Assembly: GCA_009838975.1 (NCBI GenBank)
Contig: VXQO01000102.1
Location: 1 to 45,424, forward strand
Source: Gemmatimonadota bacterium
GTDB lineage: Bacteria; Gemmatimonadota; Gemmatimonadetes; Longimicrobiales; Gaopeijiaceae
Reading direction: 5' to 3'
Length of the DNA: 45,424 nucleotides
In this document: piece after piece, positions 181-37,695 of the stretch
How the letters are laid out: each line of letters starts with the position of its first letter
Numbering within the stretch: the first letter of the stretch is position 1
Notes under the pieces: generated by a model
What the model was told of the DNA's origin: nothing
The model's database searches: none
What the model saw: only the letters and a program-made list of their open reading frames with translations
Position numbers and translations under genes: made by a program

Positions 181-1521
181 ATGCTCCTTGCCCGAACCGC
201 TCCGAATCGCGCCGCGCGTCCCCGGTGGATTGCCGTGGTCGCCGTGTGCGTCGCCGGGCTGGCAGCCTCGTGCGGCGGGGCCGACCGGGCCGGGCCGGCG
301 TCCGGCGACGCGGACGCGGCCACGCAAGGCGATGCGGGCCGGGCCGGGATCGTCGTCCTCCGTCCGGACCGCGTTCTTGACGGTCGCGGAGGCTCGCTGA
401 CCGACGTGGAAGTCGTGGTGAGCGACGGTCTCATACACACCATCACTTCCGCCGGTTCGACCGCGGGCCTCGTGTACGAGTTGTCCGGCGTCACGCTCAT
501 GCCGGGGCTGATCGACACTCACGTGCACCTGGGCTGGCACTTCGACCGCGACACCGGCCGGCTCCACAGCGCGAGCTCGACCGACACGCCCGAAGACCGG
601 GTGCTGTACGCGGCCGAGAACGCGTGGACCATGCTGCACAGCGGTGTCACCACCGTGCAGAGCGTGGGCGGGCCCGAGGACGTTCCGGTGCGCGACGCGA
701 TTGCGGGCGGCACGTTGCCGGGGCCCCGCGTGCTCACGTCGGTGCGCGCGGTCAGCGAGGGGACCGGCGGACCCGACGAGATCCGGGCACACGTCGACGA
801 GGTCGCGGCGGCGGGCGCGGACGTGATCAAGATCTTCGCGTCGGCCAGCATTCGGGTGGGGGGCACGCCGACGATGTCGCAGGAGCAGCTCGACGCGGCG
901 TGCGGACAGGCGCGCGAGCATGGACTGCGCGCGGTGGTGCACGCCCACGGACCGGAGAGCGCGAGCAGGGCGGCGCTGGCCGGATGCGACCAGATCGAAC
1001 ACGGCGCGCTCCTCGACCGCCGAACCCTGGAACTGCTGGCCGAGCGCGGCCTCTATTACGACCCGCACATCCACCTCCTCTTCGACAACTATTTCGCCAA
1101 CGCCGATCGCTACATCGGGATCGGGAGCTACACCGCAGAGGGATTCGAGCAGATGCGCGCGGCGGTGCCGACGGCGCTCGAGGTCTTCCGCGAGGCGCTC
1201 ACGGTGCCGGGGCTGCGGATCGTCTTCGGCACCGACGCGGTTGCGGGCGCGCACGGACAGAACTGGCGCGAGCTCGTGTACCGCGTGGAGGAGGGCGGGC
1301 AGGATCCGATGGCGGGGATCGTCTCTGCCACGAGCCTTGCCGCCGAGTCGCTGGGGCTGGGCGACGCGGTCGGCAGCGTGGCGGAGGGATTCGCAGCCGA
1401 TCTGATCGGGGTGGAGGGCGACCCCTCGGTCGACATCTCGGCGGTCGGGCGAGTCGTCTTCGTCATGCGTGCGGGACGGGTGTATCGCAACGACCCCGTC
1501 GCGGGCGCCGCTCGCCGATGA
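181..1521 (+). CDS. Imidazolonepropionase-like amidohydrolase, lipoprotein
   Basis: A 446-aa metal-dependent hydrolase of the amidohydrolase superfamily (imidazolonepropionase/prolidase-like group). The N-terminus is a lipoprotein signal ending in LAASC (about residue 31), so the enzyme is probably anchored in the cell envelope. The metal-binding sequence signs are all visible: HxH in DTHVHLGWH, a probable carboxylated Lys in VIKIFAS, His in VVHAHG and IEHG, and the catalytic Asp in FGTDA. These enzymes hydrolyse cyclic amides or X-Pro-type peptides; the substrate here cannot be told. The stop overlaps the start of the VOC gene by 4 bp (ATGA), so the two are translationally coupled. It resembles the hydrolase at 41794-43035, which has no signal peptide. 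Confidence 0.85.
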   Translation: MLLARTAPNRAARPRWIAVVAVCVAGLAASCGGADRAGPASGDADAATQGDAGRAGIVVLRPDRVLDGRGGSLTDVEVVVSDGLIHTITSAGSTAGLVYELSGVTLMPGLIDTHVHLGWHFDRDTGRLHSASSTDTPEDRVLYAAENAWTMLHSGVTTVQSVGGPEDVPVRDAIAGGTLPGPRVLTSVRAVSEGTGGPDEIRAHVDEVAAAGADVIKIFASASIRVGGTPTMSQEQLDAACGQAREHGLRAVVHAHGPESASRAALAGCDQIEHGALLDRRTLELLAERGLYYDPHIHLLFDNYFANADRYIGIGSYTAEGFEQMRAAVPTALEVFREALTVPGLRIVFGTDAVAGAHGQNWRELVYRVEEGGQDPMAGIVSATSLAAESLGLGDAVGSVAEGFAADLIGVEGDPSVDISAVGRVVFVMRAGRVYRNDPVAGAARR

Positions 1522-2378
1522 TCCTCCGTCTCCAGCACATCGGGATCGTGGTGCGGGATCTGCGCGACGCCTGCGCCCGCTTCGAGCGCGTCCTGGGGAT
1601 GCCCGCGCGCGACTTCCGGGACGACCAGGGCCAGGGAATGCAGCTGGATGCGCGCATCCTGCTGGGCAACGAATGCTGGCTCCACCTCGTGCAGAACTGG
1701 AACCCGGAGACGCGGGTCAGCCGCTTTCTGCGCGACCGCGGCGAGGGGCTGGAACACATCTGCATCGAGACCGACAGCATCGAGGCCGACGTCGCGCATC
1801 TGCGGGACATCGGGGTCGGGGTGTGGGAGGACAGGATCCTCGACGCCAACGACGGCTACGAGGCGTTCGTCTATCCGGACCGGCTGCCCGGGCTGACCGT
1901 CGAGCTGATCGAGTCGCACGATCGCAGCTGGGTGTATCCGTCCGAGGCCGTGGGCGAGCCGGTGAGCACGTCGATGGGGTTCACGCGCCTGCACCATGTC
2001 GGGCTCTGCGTAAACGACCTGGACGACGCGCGCCGGCGGTTCGAGAGGTACTTCGGGCTGGCGGCGCGGGACTTTGCGGAGGACGAGGGGATGTCGATGC
2101 GCGAGGCGTACATCCACTTCGGCAACCGGTGCTCGCTGCAGTTGCTGGAGGGCCGGGACCCGGCGTCGCGGGCGGGGCGGTTCCTGCGCGAGCGCGGCGA
2201 GGGACTGGAACACATCGCCATGGAGACGAGCGATCTGGAGGGCGATGTGGCCGGGCTGCGGGCGCGGGGCGTCAGGATACTCGACGATGCGATCCACCGG
2301 TTCGACGAGGGGCTCGCGGCGTTCGTGCACCCGGACGAGTTGCCGGGAATGGCGGTGGAGCTGGTGGAGTTGTTCTAG
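1518..2378 (+). CDS. Tandem-domain VOC (glyoxalase/epimerase-like) protein
   Basis: A 286-aa cytoplasmic protein made of two homologous VOC modules (about residues 1-135 and 150-286). Each starts with the typical LQHIGIVVRDL or LHHVGLCVNDL strand-helix and contains a GEGLEHI segment. The pattern resembles methylmalonyl-CoA epimerase and other metal-dependent VOC enzymes. Within-fold His and Glu residues (HIG, HHVG, EHIC, EHIA, VEL) are plausible metal ligands. The start ATG overlaps the upstream amidohydrolase stop (ATGA), so coupled expression is likely. The reaction is unknown; isomerisation, ring cleavage or glutathione-type chemistry are all possible in this superfamily. Confidence 0.8.
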   Translation: MILRLQHIGIVVRDLRDACARFERVLGMPARDFRDDQGQGMQLDARILLGNECWLHLVQNWNPETRVSRFLRDRGEGLEHICIETDSIEADVAHLRDIGVGVWEDRILDANDGYEAFVYPDRLPGLTVELIESHDRSWVYPSEAVGEPVSTSMGFTRLHHVGLCVNDLDDARRRFERYFGLAARDFAEDEGMSMREAYIHFGNRCSLQLLEGRDPASRAGRFLRERGEGLEHIAMETSDLEGDVAGLRARGVRILDDAIHRFDEGLAAFVHPDELPGMAVELVELF

Positions 2379-2491
2379 GCGGCCGGGGCTTGGGGCGCGC
2401 TGGTGGGTAATGTGTGTTCGTGGTCCGCCCGCACGTGCTGCGGTGACGGCTGCCCGAGGCGGCGGGGATTTCGCAAGCGGCCTCCGGGCGT

Positions 2492-2512
2492 AGATTCGGT
2501 GGCAGCGAATCT
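2492..2512. promoter_or_regulatory. Inverted repeat upstream of the propeller gene
   Basis: AGATTCG at 2492-2498 and CGAATCT at 2506-2512 form a perfect 7-bp inverted repeat with a 7-base spacer, 29 bp upstream of the ATG at 2542. The position suits an operator or a leader hairpin. The rest of the 2379-2541 gap shows nothing else I can support. Confidence 0.3.
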
Positions 2513-2541
2513 GTCTGTTGATCGACCTTCGGAGGTTTCCT

Positions 2542-4908
2542 ATGCGCTTTGTGCAATCCGTTTTTCACCAGCTTCCCCGCAGGCGCTTTCCGAGCGCACC
2601 GTGGGTATCGGCCGTTCTCGCGCTTGGCGGACTGCTCCTGGGTGCTCCCGCTTCGATCTCGGCCCAGGCGTTCGGCGGGGCCGTACTGGTGGCCGACCGC
2701 CAGGTGCTGGTCGGCGAGGCTGCGCACGAGCGCGATCCGGGAACCGTCCGAGGCTACGCCTTCGATGGCGAATGGACCGAGGTCTGGTCTTTGCGAGCGC
2801 CGGAGCCCGCGGTTCAGGACGGATTCGGCAGGGCGCTCGCGCGGTCGGGCGACCATCTGCTTGTCGGAGCGGATGGCGGGGACGAAGGACGGGTCTACGT
2901 CTACAGCCTTGCCGAGGTCCGGACGGGGGACGCGGAGCTGATCCAGGTGCTCGCGGGAGCGGGTCTGGACGGCTTCGGCGCGTCGCTGATGGCTTCCGGA
3001 GGCGAGATGATCGCCGTCGCGACCAGCGAAGCGGACGGACGCGTGCTTGCGACATTCGGTCTCGGAGACGACGGAATGTGGTCGCGTGGGTCCACGGTTG
3101 CGCTGCCCGACGACGTGGGTGAGCAGTTCGCGCTGGGCGACGGCCTGCTCGCAAGCGCGAGCGCGACGGGCAGAGCGGCGCACGTTTTCGAGCGTGACGC
3201 GTCCGGAGCGTGGGGACCGCCGACGGAGCTTGCACCTCCCGACGCCGAAGGTGCGGAATTCGCGATGTTTGGTCTTTCGGTGGCCGTGGCCGGAGATGAG
3301 GTCCTTGTCGGCCAAATGACGCTGCGCGGTCCCCGGCAGCCGCTATTGCACCGCTTTGCAAGGATCGACGGCGACTGGACGGCGATCGGGACCGTGTCTC
3401 CGGAGGACGATCGGGACGAGGGGTTCGGCATGTCGCTTGGGACCGACGGGGCCACACTGCTGGTGGGCGGCGGGTTGCTCCTGTCTTCCTACACTCGGCA
3501 GGGCGACGAATGGGTCCTCACGGGCGCCACCGAGATGTCCGATGCCACGGGTGACGGGCGGATCGTGGTCGGCAGCCGGCGGCTTGACTTCGCCGACGGC
3601 GTCGCGGTCTTCGGCGATCCGGGCGCCGACTTCGGACTGGGAGCCGTCACGGTCTTCTCCAACGAATCGGGGACGTGGGCCCGTACCGGACACCTCACGG
3701 TCGAGTATGCTCCCCTGCCCGCCATCAGCGGCGGCGAGATCCCCTGCGCCGACGGCGATGCCGCCGGCTACGACTGCGATCATGTGGACCTGCTCTCGTT
3801 CGTCCCGTGGGGGGAACTGGGCGCCGGACGGGGTGCGCGTCTCAACGACGTGTGGGGATGGACGGATCCGGAAACCGGGCGGGAGTACGCGCTAGTCGGC
3901 CGGATGGATGGGACCGCGTTCGTCGACGTGACCGACGCTTCCAACCCCCGCTATCTCGGCAATCTGGCCATGACCGAGGGCAGCCGGGCCAACAGCTGGC
4001 GCGACATCAAGGTCTTCAAGGACCACGCCTTCGTCGTCGCCGACGGCGCGGGGCAGCACGGGATGCAGATCTTCGACCTCACCCAACTCCGTGACGTCAC
4101 CGAGCCGCAGGAGTTCGAGGCGACCGCGATGTACAACGGGATCGCGTCGTCGCACAACGTCGCGATCAACGAGGACACGGGCTTCGCGTACCTGGTCGGG
4201 TCGTCGGACGGCGGCGAGACCTGCGGGGGCGGCTCCCACATGGTGGACATCAACGATCCCCTCAACCCCGTTTTCGCGGGATGCTTCGCGCACCCCAACA
4301 CGGGACGCCGCAACACCGGCAACTCGCACGACACCCAGTGCGTGATCTACCACGGGCCTGACCAGGATTACGCCGGCCGCGAGATCTGCGTGAACTCGAA
4401 CGAGACCGCGCTCTCGATTGCGGACGTGACCGACAAGGACAACCCCGTCGCCGTCGCCGCCGCCGACTATCCCAACGTCGCCTACGCGCATCAGGGCTGG
4501 CTCACCGAGGACCACCGCTACTTCTATTCGAACGACGAGCTGGACGAGGTGGGCGGCCTCGTCGAAGCCACGCGCACGCTGATCTGGGACCTGGAGGATC
4601 TGGACGACCCCCTGCTCCTCAGCGAGTACATGAACCCCACCAACGCCACGGACCACAACCTCTACGTCCACGGCGACCGGCTCTACATGTCGAACAACCG
4701 GGCCGGGCTGCGCGTGCTCGACATCAGCGATCCCGAGAACCCCACCGAGCTGGGGCATTTCGACACGACGCCGTGGAGCAGGGACGAAGCGGGCTTCGAC
4801 GGTACGTGGAGCGTGTACCCCTACTTCGAGAGCGGGACGGTGCTGCTGTCGAGCCGGAGGGAGGGGCTGTTCATTGTGCGGCCGAGGGCACGGCGGCTGA
4901 TCCCCTGA
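2542..4908 (+). CDS. Secreted FG-GAP / choice-of-anchor-B beta-propeller-like protein
   Basis: A 788-aa exported protein. The ATG at 2542 was chosen over the upstream TTG because GGAGG lies 7 bp before it and it begins a clear signal peptide ending near ASISAQA. Residues about 40-390 hold repeated units of the form GDHLLVGADGG...GRVYVYS, as in FG-GAP/integrin-alpha-like propellers. Residues about 420-788 hold LVIVD-type repeats (DVTDASNPRYLGNL, DISDPENPTELGHF) typical of choice-of-anchor B proteins. These are usually surface or secreted proteins of unknown ligand. Several Cys pairs (CGGG, GCFAHP, CVNSN) suggest disulfides. No catalytic motif is seen. It stands alone between the VOC gene and the Ldh2 operon. 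Confidence 0.8.
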   Translation: MRFVQSVFHQLPRRRFPSAPWVSAVLALGGLLLGAPASISAQAFGGAVLVADRQVLVGEAAHERDPGTVRGYAFDGEWTEVWSLRAPEPAVQDGFGRALARSGDHLLVGADGGDEGRVYVYSLAEVRTGDAELIQVLAGAGLDGFGASLMASGGEMIAVATSEADGRVLATFGLGDDGMWSRGSTVALPDDVGEQFALGDGLLASASATGRAAHVFERDASGAWGPPTELAPPDAEGAEFAMFGLSVAVAGDEVLVGQMTLRGPRQPLLHRFARIDGDWTAIGTVSPEDDRDEGFGMSLGTDGATLLVGGGLLLSSYTRQGDEWVLTGATEMSDATGDGRIVVGSRRLDFADGVAVFGDPGADFGLGAVTVFSNESGTWARTGHLTVEYAPLPAISGGEIPCADGDAAGYDCDHVDLLSFVPWGELGAGRGARLNDVWGWTDPETGREYALVGRMDGTAFVDVTDASNPRYLGNLAMTEGSRANSWRDIKVFKDHAFVVADGAGQHGMQIFDLTQLRDVTEPQEFEATAMYNGIASSHNVAINEDTGFAYLVGSSDGGETCGGGSHMVDINDPLNPVFAGCFAHPNTGRRNTGNSHDTQCVIYHGPDQDYAGREICVNSNETALSIADVTDKDNPVAVAAADYPNVAYAHQGWLTEDHRYFYSNDELDEVGGLVEATRTLIWDLEDLDDPLLLSEYMNPTNATDHNLYVHGDRLYMSNNRAGLRVLDISDPENPTELGHFDTTPWSRDEAGFDGTWSVYPYFESGTVLLSSRREGLFIVRPRARRLIP

Positions 4909-5051: not shown

Positions 5052-6155
5052 ATCATCGCCTACCACCTCGACGACCGCGTCTCGGTAGACCGCTTCACCG
5101 AGCCGTCCCTGCGCCACTTTGCCGAATCGGTGCTGCTGGCCCTCGGCGCGACCGCCGACGAGGCGCGCATCAACGCGGACGGGGTGGTGACGGCGTCGCT
5201 GTGGTGGCACCCCGGACAGGGTCAGGGGCTCGAGAAGCTGTTCCGCTATGCGCGGCGGATGCGGAACGGGGGGATCAGGCCAGCCGCATCGATGCGGTGG
5301 GTTCGTGAGGGCACCGCGACGGCGCTGCTCGATGCGGACAAGGGGCTGGGCTACGTGGCCGGCCGCCGCGCGATGGACCGAGCGATCGAGATGGCACACA
5401 GCACCGGGATCGCCATGGTCGCGGTGCGCCACAGCAACCACTTCGGGATCGCGGGCTATCACGCGAAGCGCGCGGCGGACGCGGGGCTGATCGGCATCGC
5501 CATGACGAACGCCGGCGCCGAGATGGCGCCGTGGGGATCGGCCCGGCCGGTCCTGGGCACGAACCCGTGGGGGATTGCCGTGCCGCGGGGCGAGGGGCGC
5601 GGCCCCATTCTGCTCGACATGGCGCTGACCCAGTCCGGCAAGGGCATGATGCGGTGGCTGCAGCGCGCCGGACTGGCGATGCCCGAGCACTGGGCGCTCA
5701 CCCCCGACGGCGCCCGCACCACCGATCCCGTCGCCGCGATGGACGGTCCCCTGCTCCCCATCGGCGACTACAAGGGCTTCGGACTCAGTCTGGTGACCGA
5801 CATCCTGACCGGTGTCTTGACGGGCTCGCTCTTCGGGGGCCAGGTATTCCAGGATGACCTCGACTACGACGTCGCCCACACGATGATCGCGATCGACACG
5901 GACGCGTTCATGCCGCGGGCACGATTCGAGGAGCGGCTCGAGGCGCTCATCGCCGAGGTGCTGGCCGCGCCGCCTGTCGACCCGGACCGCCCCGTTCAGC
6001 TCCCCGGAGAGGCCGAGCAGCGGCGCGCGCGGGAGCGGTTGCAGCGCGGCATCCCGGTGGACCGAAAGACGGTGGCGGGATTGCGCGAACTCGGCGCCGA
6101 GTTGGGAGTGCCGTTCTCGCTGGAGCCGCGCCCGCTTCAAACCACGGAGGAATGA
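5052..6155 (+). CDS. Ldh2-family NAD(P)-dependent dehydrogenase (malate/lactate/sulfolactate/ureidoglycolate type)
   Basis: A roughly 367-aa oxidoreductase of the malate/L-lactate dehydrogenase (Ldh2) family, which reduces or oxidises 2-hydroxy acids with NAD(P). Family marks include SNHFG with the catalytic His (HSNHFGIAGYHAKRA), the MTNAG and LGTNPW segments, a DYKGFGL loop and GLSLVTDIL. Homology clearly begins at VSVDRFTEPSLRHFAES, upstream of the first canonical start (GTG 5130). In frame, the only codons between the stop at 5043 and this region are sense codons led by ATC at 5052, with AGGA just before it, so a non-AUG start, a mutated start or a sequence error is implied. Its stop overlaps the next start (ATGA). 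The exact substrate is unknown. Confidence 0.8.
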   Translation: MIAYHLDDRVSVDRFTEPSLRHFAESVLLALGATADEARINADGVVTASLWWHPGQGQGLEKLFRYARRMRNGGIRPAASMRWVREGTATALLDADKGLGYVAGRRAMDRAIEMAHSTGIAMVAVRHSNHFGIAGYHAKRAADAGLIGIAMTNAGAEMAPWGSARPVLGTNPWGIAVPRGEGRGPILLDMALTQSGKGMMRWLQRAGLAMPEHWALTPDGARTTDPVAAMDGPLLPIGDYKGFGLSLVTDILTGVLTGSLFGGQVFQDDLDYDVAHTMIAIDTDAFMPRARFEERLEALIAEVLAAPPVDPDRPVQLPGEAEQRRARERLQRGIPVDRKTVAGLRELGAELGVPFSLEPRPLQTTEE

Positions 6156-33545: not shown

Positions 33546-34435
33546 TCATTTTCGACGCAACAACACTCGCCTGAGGAACCGGTTGCGGAACACGCCCCGC
33601 GGATCGAACGCCCTGCAAGTGGCTTCAAACTCCCCCAGTCCGGGATAGCCGCGCTCCACCCCGGCCCCGCCCGGAGGGAACCACTTGCCCCAGTGAAGGC
33701 GTGCGCCGAGAAGCGACGACATGCGGTCTGCCAGGGCAGCCACCACGCGCCGGAACGGCTCCCGTGGCTCGGTCAGCGTGATGAGGCTGATCGCATACCA
33801 GTCCTGCTCTTCGAGGCCGTGGCAGGAGGCCATTGAGATCAGTGTGTCGTCGGGCAGCACGCGACGGATGCAGATCGGGTAGTGGTGGACGTACGAACCG
33901 CGCTCGTCCGCCCGCCGCAGAGCCTCCACGACGAGATCGACCGCCGCCGCCAGGTGCTGGCGCGTGACGAACGCTTCCATCTCCAGGTGGCGAAAGAGGT
34001 CGTGCCGCATCAGGAGCTGCCGGTCGCTCCGGTCGGTGACGCACCACCGAGGGAAGATGAACGCCGGAAGAAGGCGTCGATAGAGCAGGTGTACGAGGCG
34101 ACGGCTCCGCATCAGCGAAGCGGAGAACTTCACGCAGAGGTGCAGCAGCACATCGATCACGGCCAGCCAGTACAGCCGATAGAGTGCCGCTCCCCCCGTC
34201 CGACGGTTCTCATCGGCCACGCTCCGTTCGTGCACGAGCCAGGTCCAGGCGTGCGGCATCAGGTAGAACTGCTGCAGCGGCGCCTTCCCCTCCCCTGCCA
34301 GCACGGCATCGAGATCGCGCCGCCAGACGGACCGCTCACGCACGTAGTATTGCGGCACGCAAGGCAGCGTCACCTCGAGGACGACGCCCATTGCCCCAAC
34401 CGAGCATCGCGCCGCCCGAAGCGCACTGCCGGAAT
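33546..34435 (-). pseudogene. FAD-linked oxidase (aldonolactone oxidase type), C-terminal part, split by the IS
   Basis: The 3' part of an oxidase gene whose 5' part lies at 37213-37695. It encodes the continuation ALRAARCSVGAMGVVLEV and the C-terminal D-arabinono-lactone/L-gulonolactone oxidase domain with HWGKWFPPG and FDPRGVFRNRF. The IS1595-type element plus one 8-bp duplication separates the halves. In silico removal joins GATTCCGGC to AGTGCGCTT in frame, giving a 447-aa protein of normal family length. The enzyme would oxidise a sugar lactone or related polyol with O2 or a dye acceptor. An upstream extension inside the IS stays open, but the N-terminal FAD site is lost, so this fragment is almost certainly inactive. 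Confidence 0.88.
34428..34435. repeat. Target site duplication, left copy
   Basis: GCCGGAAT directly outside the left terminal repeat, identical to 37234-37241. Eight bases is the usual duplication length for the IS1595 family. Confidence 0.95.
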
Positions 34436-34458
34436 GGGGCCTATATACATGAGTAACC
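34436..34458 (+). repeat. Left terminal inverted repeat
   Basis: Begins GGGGCCTATATACATG and ends AGTAACC. It is the exact reverse complement of 37211-37233 over 23 bp. The GGG start is usual for the family. Confidence 0.95.
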
Positions 34459-34641
34459 GGAAGGCAGCACACGTTCAAAATGTTGAACAAAAGCAAATGT
34501 CCAATTGTTGACGTGCAACGTGTTTGCGCTTTACCTTTATACATCGGAGGGTAGCGCCCGTCGGAGGGCAACACGTCTTAAAAACGTGGCCATGCTCATC
34601 ACAGCATGAGGGTTCGATTCCCTTACCTTCCGGTTACTCAT
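34449..34641. repeat. Internal inverted repeat linking the left TIR and the tRNA-Leu 3' end
   Basis: ATGAGTAACCGGAAGG (34449-34464) and CCTTCCGGTTACTCAT (34626-34641) are perfect 16-bp complements. The left arm covers the inner part of the terminal repeat; the right arm covers the 3' acceptor strand of the tRNA-Leu-like gene and its flank. A smaller hairpin, GTTCAA/TTGAAC, lies between them near 34480. Confidence 0.85.
34546..34632 (+). tRNA. tRNA-Leu (UAA)-like gene inside the IS
   Basis: A class II cloverleaf. Acceptor stem 34546-34552 / 34625-34631 (7 bp with one G-U), anticodon stem CACGT/ACGTG with loop CTTAAAA giving anticodon UAA, a long variable arm (CATGCT/AGCATG), and a T arm with loop TTCGATT. 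No CCA is encoded. The D arm is atypical (GCCC/GGGC with a six-base loop). It may be functional or a captured remnant; its 3' end merges with sequence matching the terminal repeat. Confidence 0.65.
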
Positions 34642-34643
34642 TT

Positions 34644-35541
34644 TTAGTAGCACTTATACAAAGGTTTTTCTGGATTATATACTTCATAATCTGCTATATA
34701 TCTATCATGTATATCAAGCGGCGGTATTAATGCAGCTTTTGTTATAGGAGTTATCACAATGCTGTCTGTTCTTGGTCCATATAAAGCCATTATATCATAT
34801 ATAGGCTCAATGCGCCCGTCAATATTTGCCCAATGAGAAATAGACGCACATTCATACCAGTGAAAACCAAATCTTCCATCAACAGGAAGTTTTCCATCAT
34901 AATAAACCCCGTGTTGTTTTCTTGCCTTGTCCCATTCATGTCTCCATATGGAATCTACTTTTGGATGTTCAGACCAATACCTGTCTCCTGCATATTTACC
35001 GTTTTCATCATATATGACTTCTCCCCCAATCCATAAGCATATGAAATATTTCATGCGCCCATATTGATTCCCATCCGCCAGAAGACGAGCTATACTCTAT
35101 TCGTCCTCCAAAAACATTATATGCATTTACAAATTCTTCATCGGTACATGGTGTAACACGAGCAATAGACGTACCAAATTTTGCATCAGTAAATACAGAT
35201 AAGTGGATTCCTTGTTTAATTGTATCTCCCTTTGCAAAATTCAATCCTCGGCAATACATATCTTTGTCGGATATGTATACTGAATCTGGAGATAGTGAAG
35301 TTTTGGACAGCATTGCAGAAATCTGTTCTATAGCATTGTTGAATGTTTCTATTTTTTGAGGATCAGAATCGGCTTCTTCGTTTGAGCCTCTAATCTGGTG
35401 AATATAAATAGGATATTTCCAAAGATCCGCTGGTACATTTTCTACTAACGGAGGACGATCAATTTTTGTTGATTCTAGAACAGATACCAGAGTGTTTTCT
35501 GTTACGCACCCACATATGACAGATACAATTAAAACTAAAAG
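34644..35541 (-). pseudogene. Frameshifted HExxH lipoprotein carried by the IS
   Basis: Two overlapping frames encode one protein of about 300 aa. The first part starts at a lipoprotein-like hydrophobic segment (LLVLIVSVICGC) and reaches HEIFHMLMDWG, a zinc-protease type HExxH motif. A run of five G near 35030 then throws the frame; with four G it continues as GEVIYDENGKYAGD in the second frame. A later YDIMALYG could be a Met-turn-like segment. There is no ATG before the signal segment: the frame runs straight into the antisense of tRNA-like 1, so the original start has been lost or displaced. Family is not identified beyond a possible metallopeptidase. Confidence 0.55.
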
Positions 35542-35542
35542 A

Positions 35543-35615
35543 GGCCCGGTGGCAGAATGGTTATGTACTTGGCCTTGCAATCCGAGAGATGTCGGTTCGA
35601 TTCCGACCCGGGCCT
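35543..35615 (+). tRNA. Cys-tRNA-like element 1, on an extended stem
   Basis: A 73-base cloverleaf: acceptor GGCCCGG/CCGGGCC, D arm with GG, T stem GTCGG/CCGAC with TTCGATT loop, and U73, a strong Cys identity base. The anticodon stem CTTGG/CCGAG encloses a nine-base loop, CCTTGCAAT, instead of seven, so the anticodon may be read as GCA (Cys) or UGC. Flanks 35531-35542 and 35615-35626 add 12 perfect base pairs below the acceptor stem. It lies antisense to the HExxH gene start. Confidence 0.5.
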
Positions 35616-35617
35616 CT

Positions 35618-35881
35618 TTTAGTTTTTGAATCAACAACATGATACTCTCCTGTCTAGCTGGCATTTTTTCTGCCCATTCATTCGGGCCGTTGCCAACACA
35701 ACAGGAGAAACCTTCGTGTCCCTGCCTATTTAGCTGTGGAATAAGCTCGGTAGCGATCCGATTTCTTATTCTCTTATTCAGCCTATTGTATTCAGCAGGT
35801 GGCCCGAAAAGACAGGCTCCCGCCGTGTTGGCAAATGAAAGGTAACTATTTTCAGCTCTTTCCGCAAGTGAAGAATAAAAA
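35618..35881 (-). CDS. Unrecognised open frame between two tRNA-like elements
   Basis: About 88 codons remain open between tRNA-like 1 and 2, encoding FYSSLAERAENSYLSFANT... to ...ESIMLLIQKLK. The first ATG comes only near the end (MPARQESIM), so any gene would start inside the antisense of tRNA-like 2, or this is a fragment. It has mixed charged and hydrophobic composition and no known motif. The frame continues through both antisense tRNAs, giving the well-known spurious peptide ARVGIEPT, so I give it little weight. Confidence 0.2.
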
Positions 35882-35954
35882 GGCCCGGTGGCAGAATGGC
35901 TATGTACTTGGCTTTGCAGGCTAAGAAATGTCGGTTCGATTCCGACCCGGGCCT
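35882..35954 (+). tRNA. Cys-tRNA-like element 2, on an extended stem
   Basis: A 73-base cloverleaf nearly identical to element 1 outside the anticodon arm: same acceptor, D arm, T arm and U73. The anticodon arm is CTTGG-CTTTGCAGG-CTAAG, again a nine-base loop, though a C-G pair can close it to seven bases with UGC central. Flanks 35868-35881 and 35954-35967 extend the stem by about 13 pairs with one mismatch. The right arm contains the stop codon of the 47-aa ORF. Confidence 0.5.
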
Positions 35955-35956
35955 CT

Positions 35957-36100
35957 TTATTCTTCATTTTTCTTATCTATTTCTTCTGGAAATGGCTCCA
36001 ACGCATCAGGAGGCAGAGACATAAGTTTCCGTGCAATGTTTTCTGGTGTATCTGGTATGCGCTTGGGCCATTTAGCTTTTTTGCCTTTTTTCTTTTTCAT
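35957..36100 (-). CDS. Small basic 47-aa protein of the IS
   Basis: ATG 36100 to TAA 35957. The N-terminus is extremely Lys-rich (MKKKKGKKAKWPKR), followed by IPDTPENIARKLMSLPPDALEPF and an acidic tail. The PDTPENIARxLM pattern looks like a small protein I associate with ISXO2-type elements, but I cannot name the family with certainty. The sequence around its start (TGACCAAATGAA) duplicates the transposase stop, suggesting the two ORFs once overlapped as ATGA and were translated together. A nucleic-acid binding or transposition-control role is plausible from its charge (inference). Confidence 0.6.
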   Translation of the reverse strand: MKKKKGKKAKWPKRIPDTPENIARKLMSLPPDALEPFPEEIDKKNEE

Positions 36101-36138
36101 TTGGTCAAATGCGCCTTGTTTTTATGAACAACGAAGAA

Positions 36139-36211
36139 GATCCGGTGGCAGAATGGATATGCGCCCGGACTTGCAAGCTGGGAGACGTCGGTTCGATTCC
36201 GACCCGGATCT
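36139..36211 (+). tRNA. Cys-tRNA-like element 3, on an extended stem
   Basis: A 73-base cloverleaf with a different acceptor, GATCCGG/CCGGATC, and the same D-arm, T-arm and U73 pattern. Anticodon arm CCCGG-ACTTGCAAG-CTGGG has a nine-base loop. Flanks 36124-36138 and 36211-36225 add 15 pairs with one G-U. It lies exactly between the transposase stop, which is inside the right flank arm, and the 47-aa ORF start. Confidence 0.5.
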
Positions 36212-36221
36212 TTTTCGTTGT

Positions 36222-37146
36222 TCATTTGGTCAGTTTCTTCCAGGTGAGGATTTTTCCTTCTAGACTGCGAGCTACCTTTTGCATTTGTGTTCTTATGCTC
36301 ATCTTTCGGACATTGTGTTTCCATGCAAACTCATCAGCATATCTTTGTAGATGTTTTGGAGACATATAATGAAACGTTCCTTTGTGAGCGCGTTTCAACA
36401 TAGACCAAAAACTTTCTAGACCATTGGTATGTACATCGCCTCTTACAAATTCACCACGAGAATGACAAACCTTTTTGTGGTAATGATGAGCATTAGTATA
36501 TACTCTGCTTTCATCTGTATACAATTTCGCTCGTCCATGCAGCTTTTCAGATAGAAAATCATATACTGAATCCATTGTTACGCCATCTGGCATAACTCGG
36601 GCGTATACATGATTACTGAATCTATCTTTCATTCCAACAACAGGTGTCTTTGTACCAATCGGCCCTTTGCGAGCTTTCTTCTTTGCATGTTTGTTTTTCT
36701 CTAATCCTCCTACATAAGTCTCGTCAGCTTCAACAGGACCAATAAAATGTTGCATTGGAGTTTGAAGCTTCCAACCTTCACGAATTCTGTGAGCAAGAAA
36801 CCAGGCAGTTTTTTGGGTTATTCCTAATTCTTTATGAAGTTGTACGGATGACATACCTTTAGGATGATTGGCCATAAGATATATAGCAACGGCCCAAACT
36901 CTATATCCTAACTTGCTATTCTGCATCACAGTACCAGTTTTCACAGAAAAGAATTTTCTACAATCTCTGCATCTATGAGGCATTGTTGGATGCGTAGTCT
37001 TTTTTTTGCGTATTCATAGATTCGCATTTTGGACACACTGGACAGCCGAAATCTCCCCATCTGACTTGTTGAAACCATTTCTCGGCCGTATTATCGTCCG
37101 GAAACATTTCCATTAGCTTGAAAAGAGAAAACGGCTTTTTGAACAT
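36222..37146 (-). pseudogene. ISXO2-like transposase, frameshifted in an A8 run
   Basis: Two frames encode one IS1595-family transposase of about 310 aa. The first (36973-37146, 57 aa, ATG 37146) has the N-terminal helix and the first zinc-ribbon knuckle (CPVC). The second (36222-36983) starts with the second knuckle (CRDC), then the HTH-like region and the DDE-type catalytic domain: D87 in VEADETYVGG, D157 in YTDES, and HTNGLESFW carrying the Asn/Glu of the family. The frames meet around eight A (T at 37000-37007 on the plus strand); seven A would join them. It could be decay, sequence error, or controlled slippage on the A run. All catalytic residues are intact. Confidence 0.85.
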
Positions 37147-37210
37147 GGCGCATCCTAATCTTGAGTATACAGCTACCGCGTCGGTAATATAACACCAGTG
37201 TCAACCCCTT

Positions 37211-37233
37211 GGTTACTCATGTATATAGGCCCC
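37211..37233 (-). repeat. Right terminal inverted repeat
   Basis: Starts GGTTACTCATGTATAT on the plus strand and ends AGGCCCC; the exact complement of the left repeat. Confidence 0.95.
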
Positions 37234-37695
37234 GCCGGAATCGACGGTGCGGACCCGCGCCTTCCCATCCCTTCCGTAGCACGCGATCCGCATGGACTCG
37301 ACGTAGTGCGACATGGAGTGCCGTCCCGAGCCGTGAGTCCCCGTCGCGGCCGCGCCAGCCACCGTCTGGCGGTCGATGAGCCCGATCGAGGGCAGCGTCA
37401 GGCCCCGTTTTGACAGGTGTTTGAGAAGGGCGCCGATCCTGACCCCGGCTCCCGCCGTCACGCGCCTGCGGTCACCCTGCACATGCACGCGTGCGAGATG
37501 GCGCAGGTCGACGAGCGCATCGGCGGTCTCGATTCCCCCGTTCCACGAGTGCCCGGCTCCGAGCACCCGCACCGTTCCGTCCCGGTGCCTGTCGAGTATT
37601 AGGAGGACCTCCTCTTCACTGAGCGGACGGTACCTGTGCCGGGGAGTGAAACTGATGTTCCTGCCGAAGTTGGAGATCGGGGCGACGCCCCTCAC
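37213..37695 (-). pseudogene. FAD-linked oxidase, N-terminal part, split by the IS
   Basis: GTG 37695 overlaps the ABC ATPase stop (GTGA), making this the last gene of the peptide ABC operon. It encodes the FAD-binding PCMH-type half: VRVLGAGHSW, with a His in the place used for covalent FAD in aldonolactone oxidases, then VTAGAGVRIGALLKHL and SIGLIDRQTVAGAAATGTHGSG. Host sequence ends at 37234; the reading frame then adds seven codons of IS sequence and stops at TAA 37213. The residual 160-aa protein lacks the substrate domain. The rest is at 33546-34435. Confidence 0.9.
37234..37241. repeat. Target site duplication, right copy
   Basis: GCCGGAAT, identical to 34428-34435, directly outside the right terminal repeat. 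Confidence 0.95.

Follow-up and report, generated by a model that had tools for sequence, protein, structure and literature searches.

A tRNA-like hairpin between two copies of a 12-bp repeat at the transposase/small-ORF junction of an IS1595-family element

The stretch of DNA analysed here (the window) comprises 45,424 nucleotides (nt) of contig VXQO01000102.1 from a Gemmatimonadota bacterium (assembly GCA_009838975.1) and contains an IS1595-family (ISXO2-like) element at 34436-37233. Within this element an exact direct repeat of 12 base pairs (bp), TTCATTTGGTCA, lies on either side of a tRNA-like hairpin, M3, which separates the transposase gene from a small open reading frame (ORF). A one-off repair or template-switch event probably inserted 113 bp, together with a 12-bp duplication, into the position where this family carries its cargo, and the insertion was presumably kept since both genes survived it. 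The junction consists of the following features, numbered as in the window.

36222-36983, minus strand: main part of the transposase (DDE_Tnp_IS1595, PF12762, E 5.9e-33)
36221-36232, minus strand: repeat copy (TGACCAAATGAA as read on this strand) with the transposase stop, TGA 36224-36222
36108-36220: segment of 113 bp between the repeat copies, made up of the tRNA-like hairpin and a 16-nt filler at 36108-36123
36139-36211, plus strand: M3 tRNA-like gene, called Ala-TGC by ARAGORN, 48.3 bits with RF00005, with a Cys-like body
36124-36145 and 36204-36225: arms of a 22-bp inverted repeat that lengthens the acceptor stem of M3
36096-36107, minus strand: repeat copy (TGACCAAATGAA) with the small-ORF start, ATG 36100-36098
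35957-36100, minus strand: small ORF of 47 amino acids, belonging to a small-protein family carried with the IS1595 transposase

Read on the minus strand, transposase coding DNA precedes the first repeat copy and small-ORF coding DNA comes after the second, and both outer sides are therefore native. When the repeat is collapsed to a single copy, the transposase stop and the small-ORF start share the letters ATGA. An earlier note on this DNA had described both the repeat, with the stop in one copy and the start in the other, and the overlap that results from collapsing it, and both are confirmed at these coordinates. The longest direct repeat between the 45-nt flanks of M3 is 12 nt, a length that none of 300 dinucleotide shuffles reached; with 100-nt flanks, 4 of 300 did so.

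It is highly improbable that the repeat is a coincidence and that the two genes never overlapped. The observation was made post hoc, with many repeats open to notice, and a junction in a related element, L123, also has a repeated 11-mer. TTCATTTGGTCA has no further site in the window, even at two mismatches, while at that looseness 1.1 chance matches are expected and 30 of 100 window shuffles had at least two; the loose match count is no evidence when taken alone. Against coincidence stand the shuffles of the M3 flanks, the register of the repeat, which joins stop to start, and the existence of such an overlap in another relative, L101.

An iterated profile finds the small-protein family, with a motif like PIPDTPENIA / IDATPEEVAKAL, near the transposase in most relatives; the 47-amino-acid ORF itself has no Pfam match. 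The gap between the two genes was measured in 52 distinct elements in which the transposase match reaches the C-terminal part and the small ORF lies on the same strand. L001 (the window's own copy), seven opposite-strand small ORFs, five partial transposases and three duplicates were left out, and loci above E 0.1 as well as L059, L064 and L077 (copies of loci already counted) were removed before the count. The small-ORF start was taken as the first ATG at most 30 codons from the motif, or else as another start codon, and the gap lengths are approximate. The gap exceeds 300 nt in 47 of the 52 elements, measures 31-300 nt in two and is 30 nt or less in three. These three tight junctions, all within -4 to +30 nt, belong to L101, whose module-free junction has a GTGA shared by the stop of the transposase and the start of the small ORF, to L126 (4 nt) and to L004, in which the distance is 14 nt if the small ORF starts at a GTG and 30 nt if it starts at an ATG. 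L101 derives from a Chloroflexota metagenome-assembled genome, and its small ORF begins with a lysine-rich stretch similar to that in the window. In the 1.4-kb element L133 and its copies, the small ORF starts about 19 nt past the transposase stop; they stand outside the 52 because their small ORF reaches only E 0.11.

Where the gap is large, the small ORF frequently comes last in gene order, its end commonly lying no more than about 30-50 nt from the right end, and the long-gap junctions that were inspected hold other cargo. With 3 of 52 junctions tight and 47 of 52 long, the junction is therefore the cargo position of the family, so the cargo-free state appears to be a transposase followed directly by the small ORF, with cargo carried between the two and M3 occupying that place. 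In a widespread IS1595 group, cargo is thus usually carried at this junction. Ancestral adjacency or overlap of the two genes, as the earlier note had proposed, is well supported by L101, L126 and L004. The exact ATGA form is a likely reconstruction from the repeat and the single GTGA case: the expectation that module-free relatives would overlap by ATGA was borne out in L101, where the overlap reads GTGA. Long spacers without a tRNA-like module, which the same note had taken as evidence against its reading, do occur in most relatives, and those inspected are filled by other cargo.

Under the reading we favour, the element is an IS1595 cargo transposon with a core of two genes, the transposase and behind it a small accessory ORF, the two touching or overlapping in the cargo-free state and the cargo of the family sitting between them. 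The tRNA-like hairpin would have entered this junction by a single DNA break and repair or by a template switch, and the event would have duplicated the 12-bp overlap (possibly up to ~23 bp). Each gene would thus have obtained its own boundary copy, preserving both the transposase stop and the small-ORF start, while sequence that matches the end of the neighbouring gene would have completed the long hairpin stem. The insertion would have persisted because, thanks to the duplication, both genes stayed intact. The placement of the repeat argues for this sequence of events: its copies are asymmetric about M3, at distances of 31 and 9 nt from the tRNA. One arm of the 22-bp inverted repeat shares its outer 5 bp with a repeat copy, while the other arm ends 16 nt short of the second copy. 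A source for the filler at 36108-36123 was sought within the element, where the best match elsewhere is 11/16. Compared with dedicated transposition, insertion by repair or template switching accounts for the data more economically; we infer both this choice of mechanism and the selection for intact ORFs. If correct, the overlap duplication is a clear example of new sequence entering a stop/start overlap with neither gene killed.

Several points weigh against this reading. The tight state occurs in just 3 of the 52 relatives and a true 4-bp overlap in one, the mechanism is not directly shown, and a comparable duplication was found at no other cargo junction. Moreover, no close module-free relative was found, the best transposase identity being 59%, and the empty site is therefore reconstructed, not seen. 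Protein searches covering 59 relatives, 395 genomes of the phylum and genome contigs gave nothing above 59% amino acid identity, searches of viral contigs gave one locus at 40%, and plasmid matches were all below 60%; a DNA search of 121 family genomes yielded no closer relative and no empty-site pair. As for L123, its 11-nt repeat (4740-4750 and 6095-6105), situated between the end of the transposase and the stretch preceding the small ORF, is the one other clearly significant repeat. It was considered as a second overlap duplication and set aside, as it appears to fall in what looks like the end of the upstream cargo gene and is probably due to chance.

M3 has two paralogues in the same element, and all three pass the RF00005 tRNA covariance-model cut-off of 29 bits.

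35882-35955, plus strand: M2 tRNA-like gene, 23-bp arms at 35866-35888 and 35947-35969, 50.7 bits with RF00005
35543-35616, plus strand: M1 tRNA-like gene, 19-bp arms at 35531-35549 and 35608-35626, 50.8 bits with RF00005

The likeness between M1 and M2 is 90% over 82 nt, and for M3 it is 79%; the tRNA core was therefore copied within the element. Between these copies the outer arms show no relation beyond a few bases, and each is self-complementary. M3 folds strongly on either strand (z -6.65 and -6.33). In stem length, M1-M3 and a gene of the L101 element, L101R, are clearly set apart, alone among 130 distinct tRNA genes. Extended stems in L063 (11 bp) and L082 (10 bp) were considered as the same phenomenon and rejected, since they fall within the tail of ordinary tRNA genes.

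Besides the window, tRNA-like cargo occurs in L082, L106, L125 and L101, or 4 of the 48 elements (47 and, in addition, L101) that have a target duplication of 8 bp. The L101 element (706-3637, target duplication TTTAGAAA) carries two Cys-like genes, at 885-958 and 3470-3542, one with a 14-bp continuous stem and the other, L101L, inside a separate 14-bp inverted repeat. The tRNA-like genes of the other IS1595 elements are of various kinds (L082, 6829-6927 and 5157-5229; L106, 5852-5924; L125, 5719-5793). Since such cargo is occasional and six further tRNA genes (L098, L122, L138) are either outside elements or close to elements without defined ends, we claim no enrichment.

The earlier note interpreted the 12-bp repeat as a target duplication made on arrival of a tRNA-like module that itself moves. 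That M3 is such a small mobile unit, moved by some transposase, is unlikely. Three paralogous modules, 79-90% alike, at three places in one element would fit mobility, as would a Cys-like module with a similar long stem at a different place in the L101 element and the exact 12-mer around M3. However, among 11 tRNA-like genes inside or beside elements, M3 is the only one with a significant flanking repeat; none was found at M1, M2, the tRNA-Leu-like gene of the element, L101L, L101R, L063, L082 (two genes), L106 or L125. Five control tRNA genes outside elements have mostly short repeats, one of them 9 nt long in 100-nt flanks (3/300 shuffles). The repeat bounds no shared terminal sequences, and the unit between its copies lacks inverted ends, with one arm running 5 bp into the repeat and the other stopping 16 nt away. 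A covariance model built from the four long-stem modules was searched against 48 genomes holding related elements and 121 of the family. The four training modules reach 92-103 bits, by construction, and the best score of anything else in these 169 genomes is 60.5 bits. The absence of repeats at the other modules, the unrelated arms and the lack of inverted ends at the repeat therefore make dedicated transposition with a 12-bp target duplication unlikely, and this part of the earlier interpretation is not sustained.

A looser match, 20 of 23 positions, joins 36085-36107 to 36210-36232 and hints that the duplication may exceed 12 bp. It bears on a rather unlikely account in which about 23 bp were duplicated, the small-ORF start being copied next to the transposase stop, while the other arm was produced by snap-back copying in replication and a tRNA-like core became the nucleus of a module built up in situ, the hairpin not having arrived as a finished unit. 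The additional 11 columns of the match are identical at eight positions (P ~0.01 by composition), but they are T-rich and could match by composition. Snap-back copying would accommodate arms that are locus-specific yet complementary: over the 14-pair extended stem of M1, M2, M3 and L101R, 98.2% of cells are paired and 9 of the 14 pairs have changed on both sides. An inverted terminal-repeat end also adjoins the tRNA-Leu-like gene. Set against this, the native arm lies on different sides in different modules, and the 14-bp inverted repeat around L101L is not continuous with its acceptor stem.

In the element as a whole, each gene junction (between transposase, small ORF, non-coding RNA, cargo gene and element end) has one tRNA-like hairpin, and all four hairpins lie on the strand opposite the element's genes. 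At the three Cys-like hairpins, sequence resembling the neighbouring gene end completes the stem, and the 19-23-bp stem forms on both strands. It is conceivable, if quite unlikely, that the hairpins are punctuation cassettes that enter gene overlaps by overlap duplication and then serve in RNase III-type processing or as insulating hairpins. Such a function, if true, would mean that mobile DNA puts tRNA-like structure to a new use.

Judged from its sequence, the M3 hairpin is best explained as cargo derived from a tRNA-Cys-like gene. The module bodies resemble tRNA-Cys genes of phage contigs in the D-arm (GTGGCAGARTGG), the T-arm and U73. They differ from these in two additional nucleotides around the anticodon loop, where the central triplet is UGC and not the GCA of a 7-nt loop, in the lack of an encoded CCA and in the 19-23-bp stem; M1-M3 are thus not tRNA-Cys genes in the strict sense. 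Nor do they have the G3:U70 pair, the identity element of tRNA-Ala: in the alignment, the third acceptor pair is C-G in M1 and M2 and U-A in M3.

The IS1595 family is said to have been described by Siguier et al. in 2009 as insertion sequences with passenger genes. The window element resembles this family in its DDE_Tnp_IS1595 domain and zinc ribbon, terminal inverted repeats, 8-bp duplication and internal cargo, and differs in that the cargo includes four tRNA-like genes, one per gene junction. A literature search for tRNA genes as IS1595 passengers found no paper. With these elements, IS1595 cargo is seen to include tRNA-like genes whose anticodon loops are enlarged and whose stems are very long.

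The nearest precedent is an allo-tRNA(UAU) pseudogene that overlaps a transposon-related ORF in Edaphobacter C40, as described in a review (PMC7609411); in both cases an unusual tRNA-like gene is associated with an ORF of a transposon. Compared with the allo-tRNA as presented there, the window modules differ by a T-stem of 5 bp, a variable loop that is short and an acceptor stem that runs on into the flanks. Several tRNA genes on one mobile element are also found in the tRNA array units of mobile plasmids, for which an anti-defence role was proposed (PMC12803027); these are clustered and reside on large plasmids, and the abstract mentions no hairpin arms.

Outside the cargo junction, the element has the following features.

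37211-37233 and 34436-34458: terminal inverted repeats, 23 bp, perfect
34428-34435: left copy of the 8-bp target duplication GCCGGAAT
37234-37241: right copy of the target duplication
36973-37146, minus strand: N-terminal zinc ribbon of the transposase, in a separate frame (PF12760, E 9.7e-6)
35679-35809, minus strand: candidate structured non-coding RNA of ~130 nt, common to related IS1595 elements
35008-35541, minus strand: cargo ORF with a lipoprotein-like start and an HEIFH motif
34546-34632, plus strand: tRNA-Leu(TAA)-like gene

On the basis of its PF12762 and PF12760 matches, the transposase assigns the element to the IS1595 family. The terminal repeats and the duplication agree with this, 8 bp being the target duplication of the family. 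The element has a G+C content of 0.41 compared with 0.66 for the window. Its minus strand encodes, in order, the transposase, the 47-amino-acid ORF, the candidate non-coding RNA and a broken cargo gene, and its plus strand four tRNA-like genes, three called Ala-TGC (M1-M3) and one Leu-TAA by ARAGORN.

The transposase frame breaks at or near a run of eight A (37000-37007, minus strand), which could reflect programmed slippage, decay or sequencing error. The cargo gene is likewise apparently split over two frames near a run of G (34644-35054 and 35008-35541, minus strand), a second homopolymer frame break within the same element. Its HEIFH sequence is one we take to be an HExxH motif. Relatives of the cargo gene were sought in 57 genomes, with a single weak match (E 0.0013), and a search of phages gave nothing useful.

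The candidate non-coding RNA lies between M2 and M1. A model built from nine copies, which match by construction, gives 25 matches in 23 of 92 sources, these nine seeds included. All 12 matches in elements with defined ends, the window among them, fall inside the element, and the flanks of 47 loci, 227 kb in all, yielded none; for the remaining 13, the element ends are undefined and the match is downstream of the transposase. Besides the window, the loci are L005, L012, L013, L023, L024, L025, L033, L062, L063, L066, L068, L070, L076, L082, L091, L100, L104, L114, L116, L121, L124 and L125. The genome of the window has two strong matches, one in the window element and one near another IS1595 transposase, and a third at E 0.007. 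Fourteen of 26 predicted pairs keep pairing through double changes in the nine-sequence alignment, and we regard 35679-35809 as a candidate structured non-coding RNA tied to this IS1595 group. Rfam gave only a sub-threshold match, to RF02221 (sRNA-Xcc1) in one copy at E 0.43; sRNA-Xcc1 is known from integron cassettes, according to PMC12444791.

Finally, the tRNA-Leu-like gene is adjoined on its 3' side by 21 nt that repeat the inner end of the left terminal repeat in inverted orientation (34444-34464 and 34626-34646; 90%), as if they had been formed by snap-back copying from the element end.
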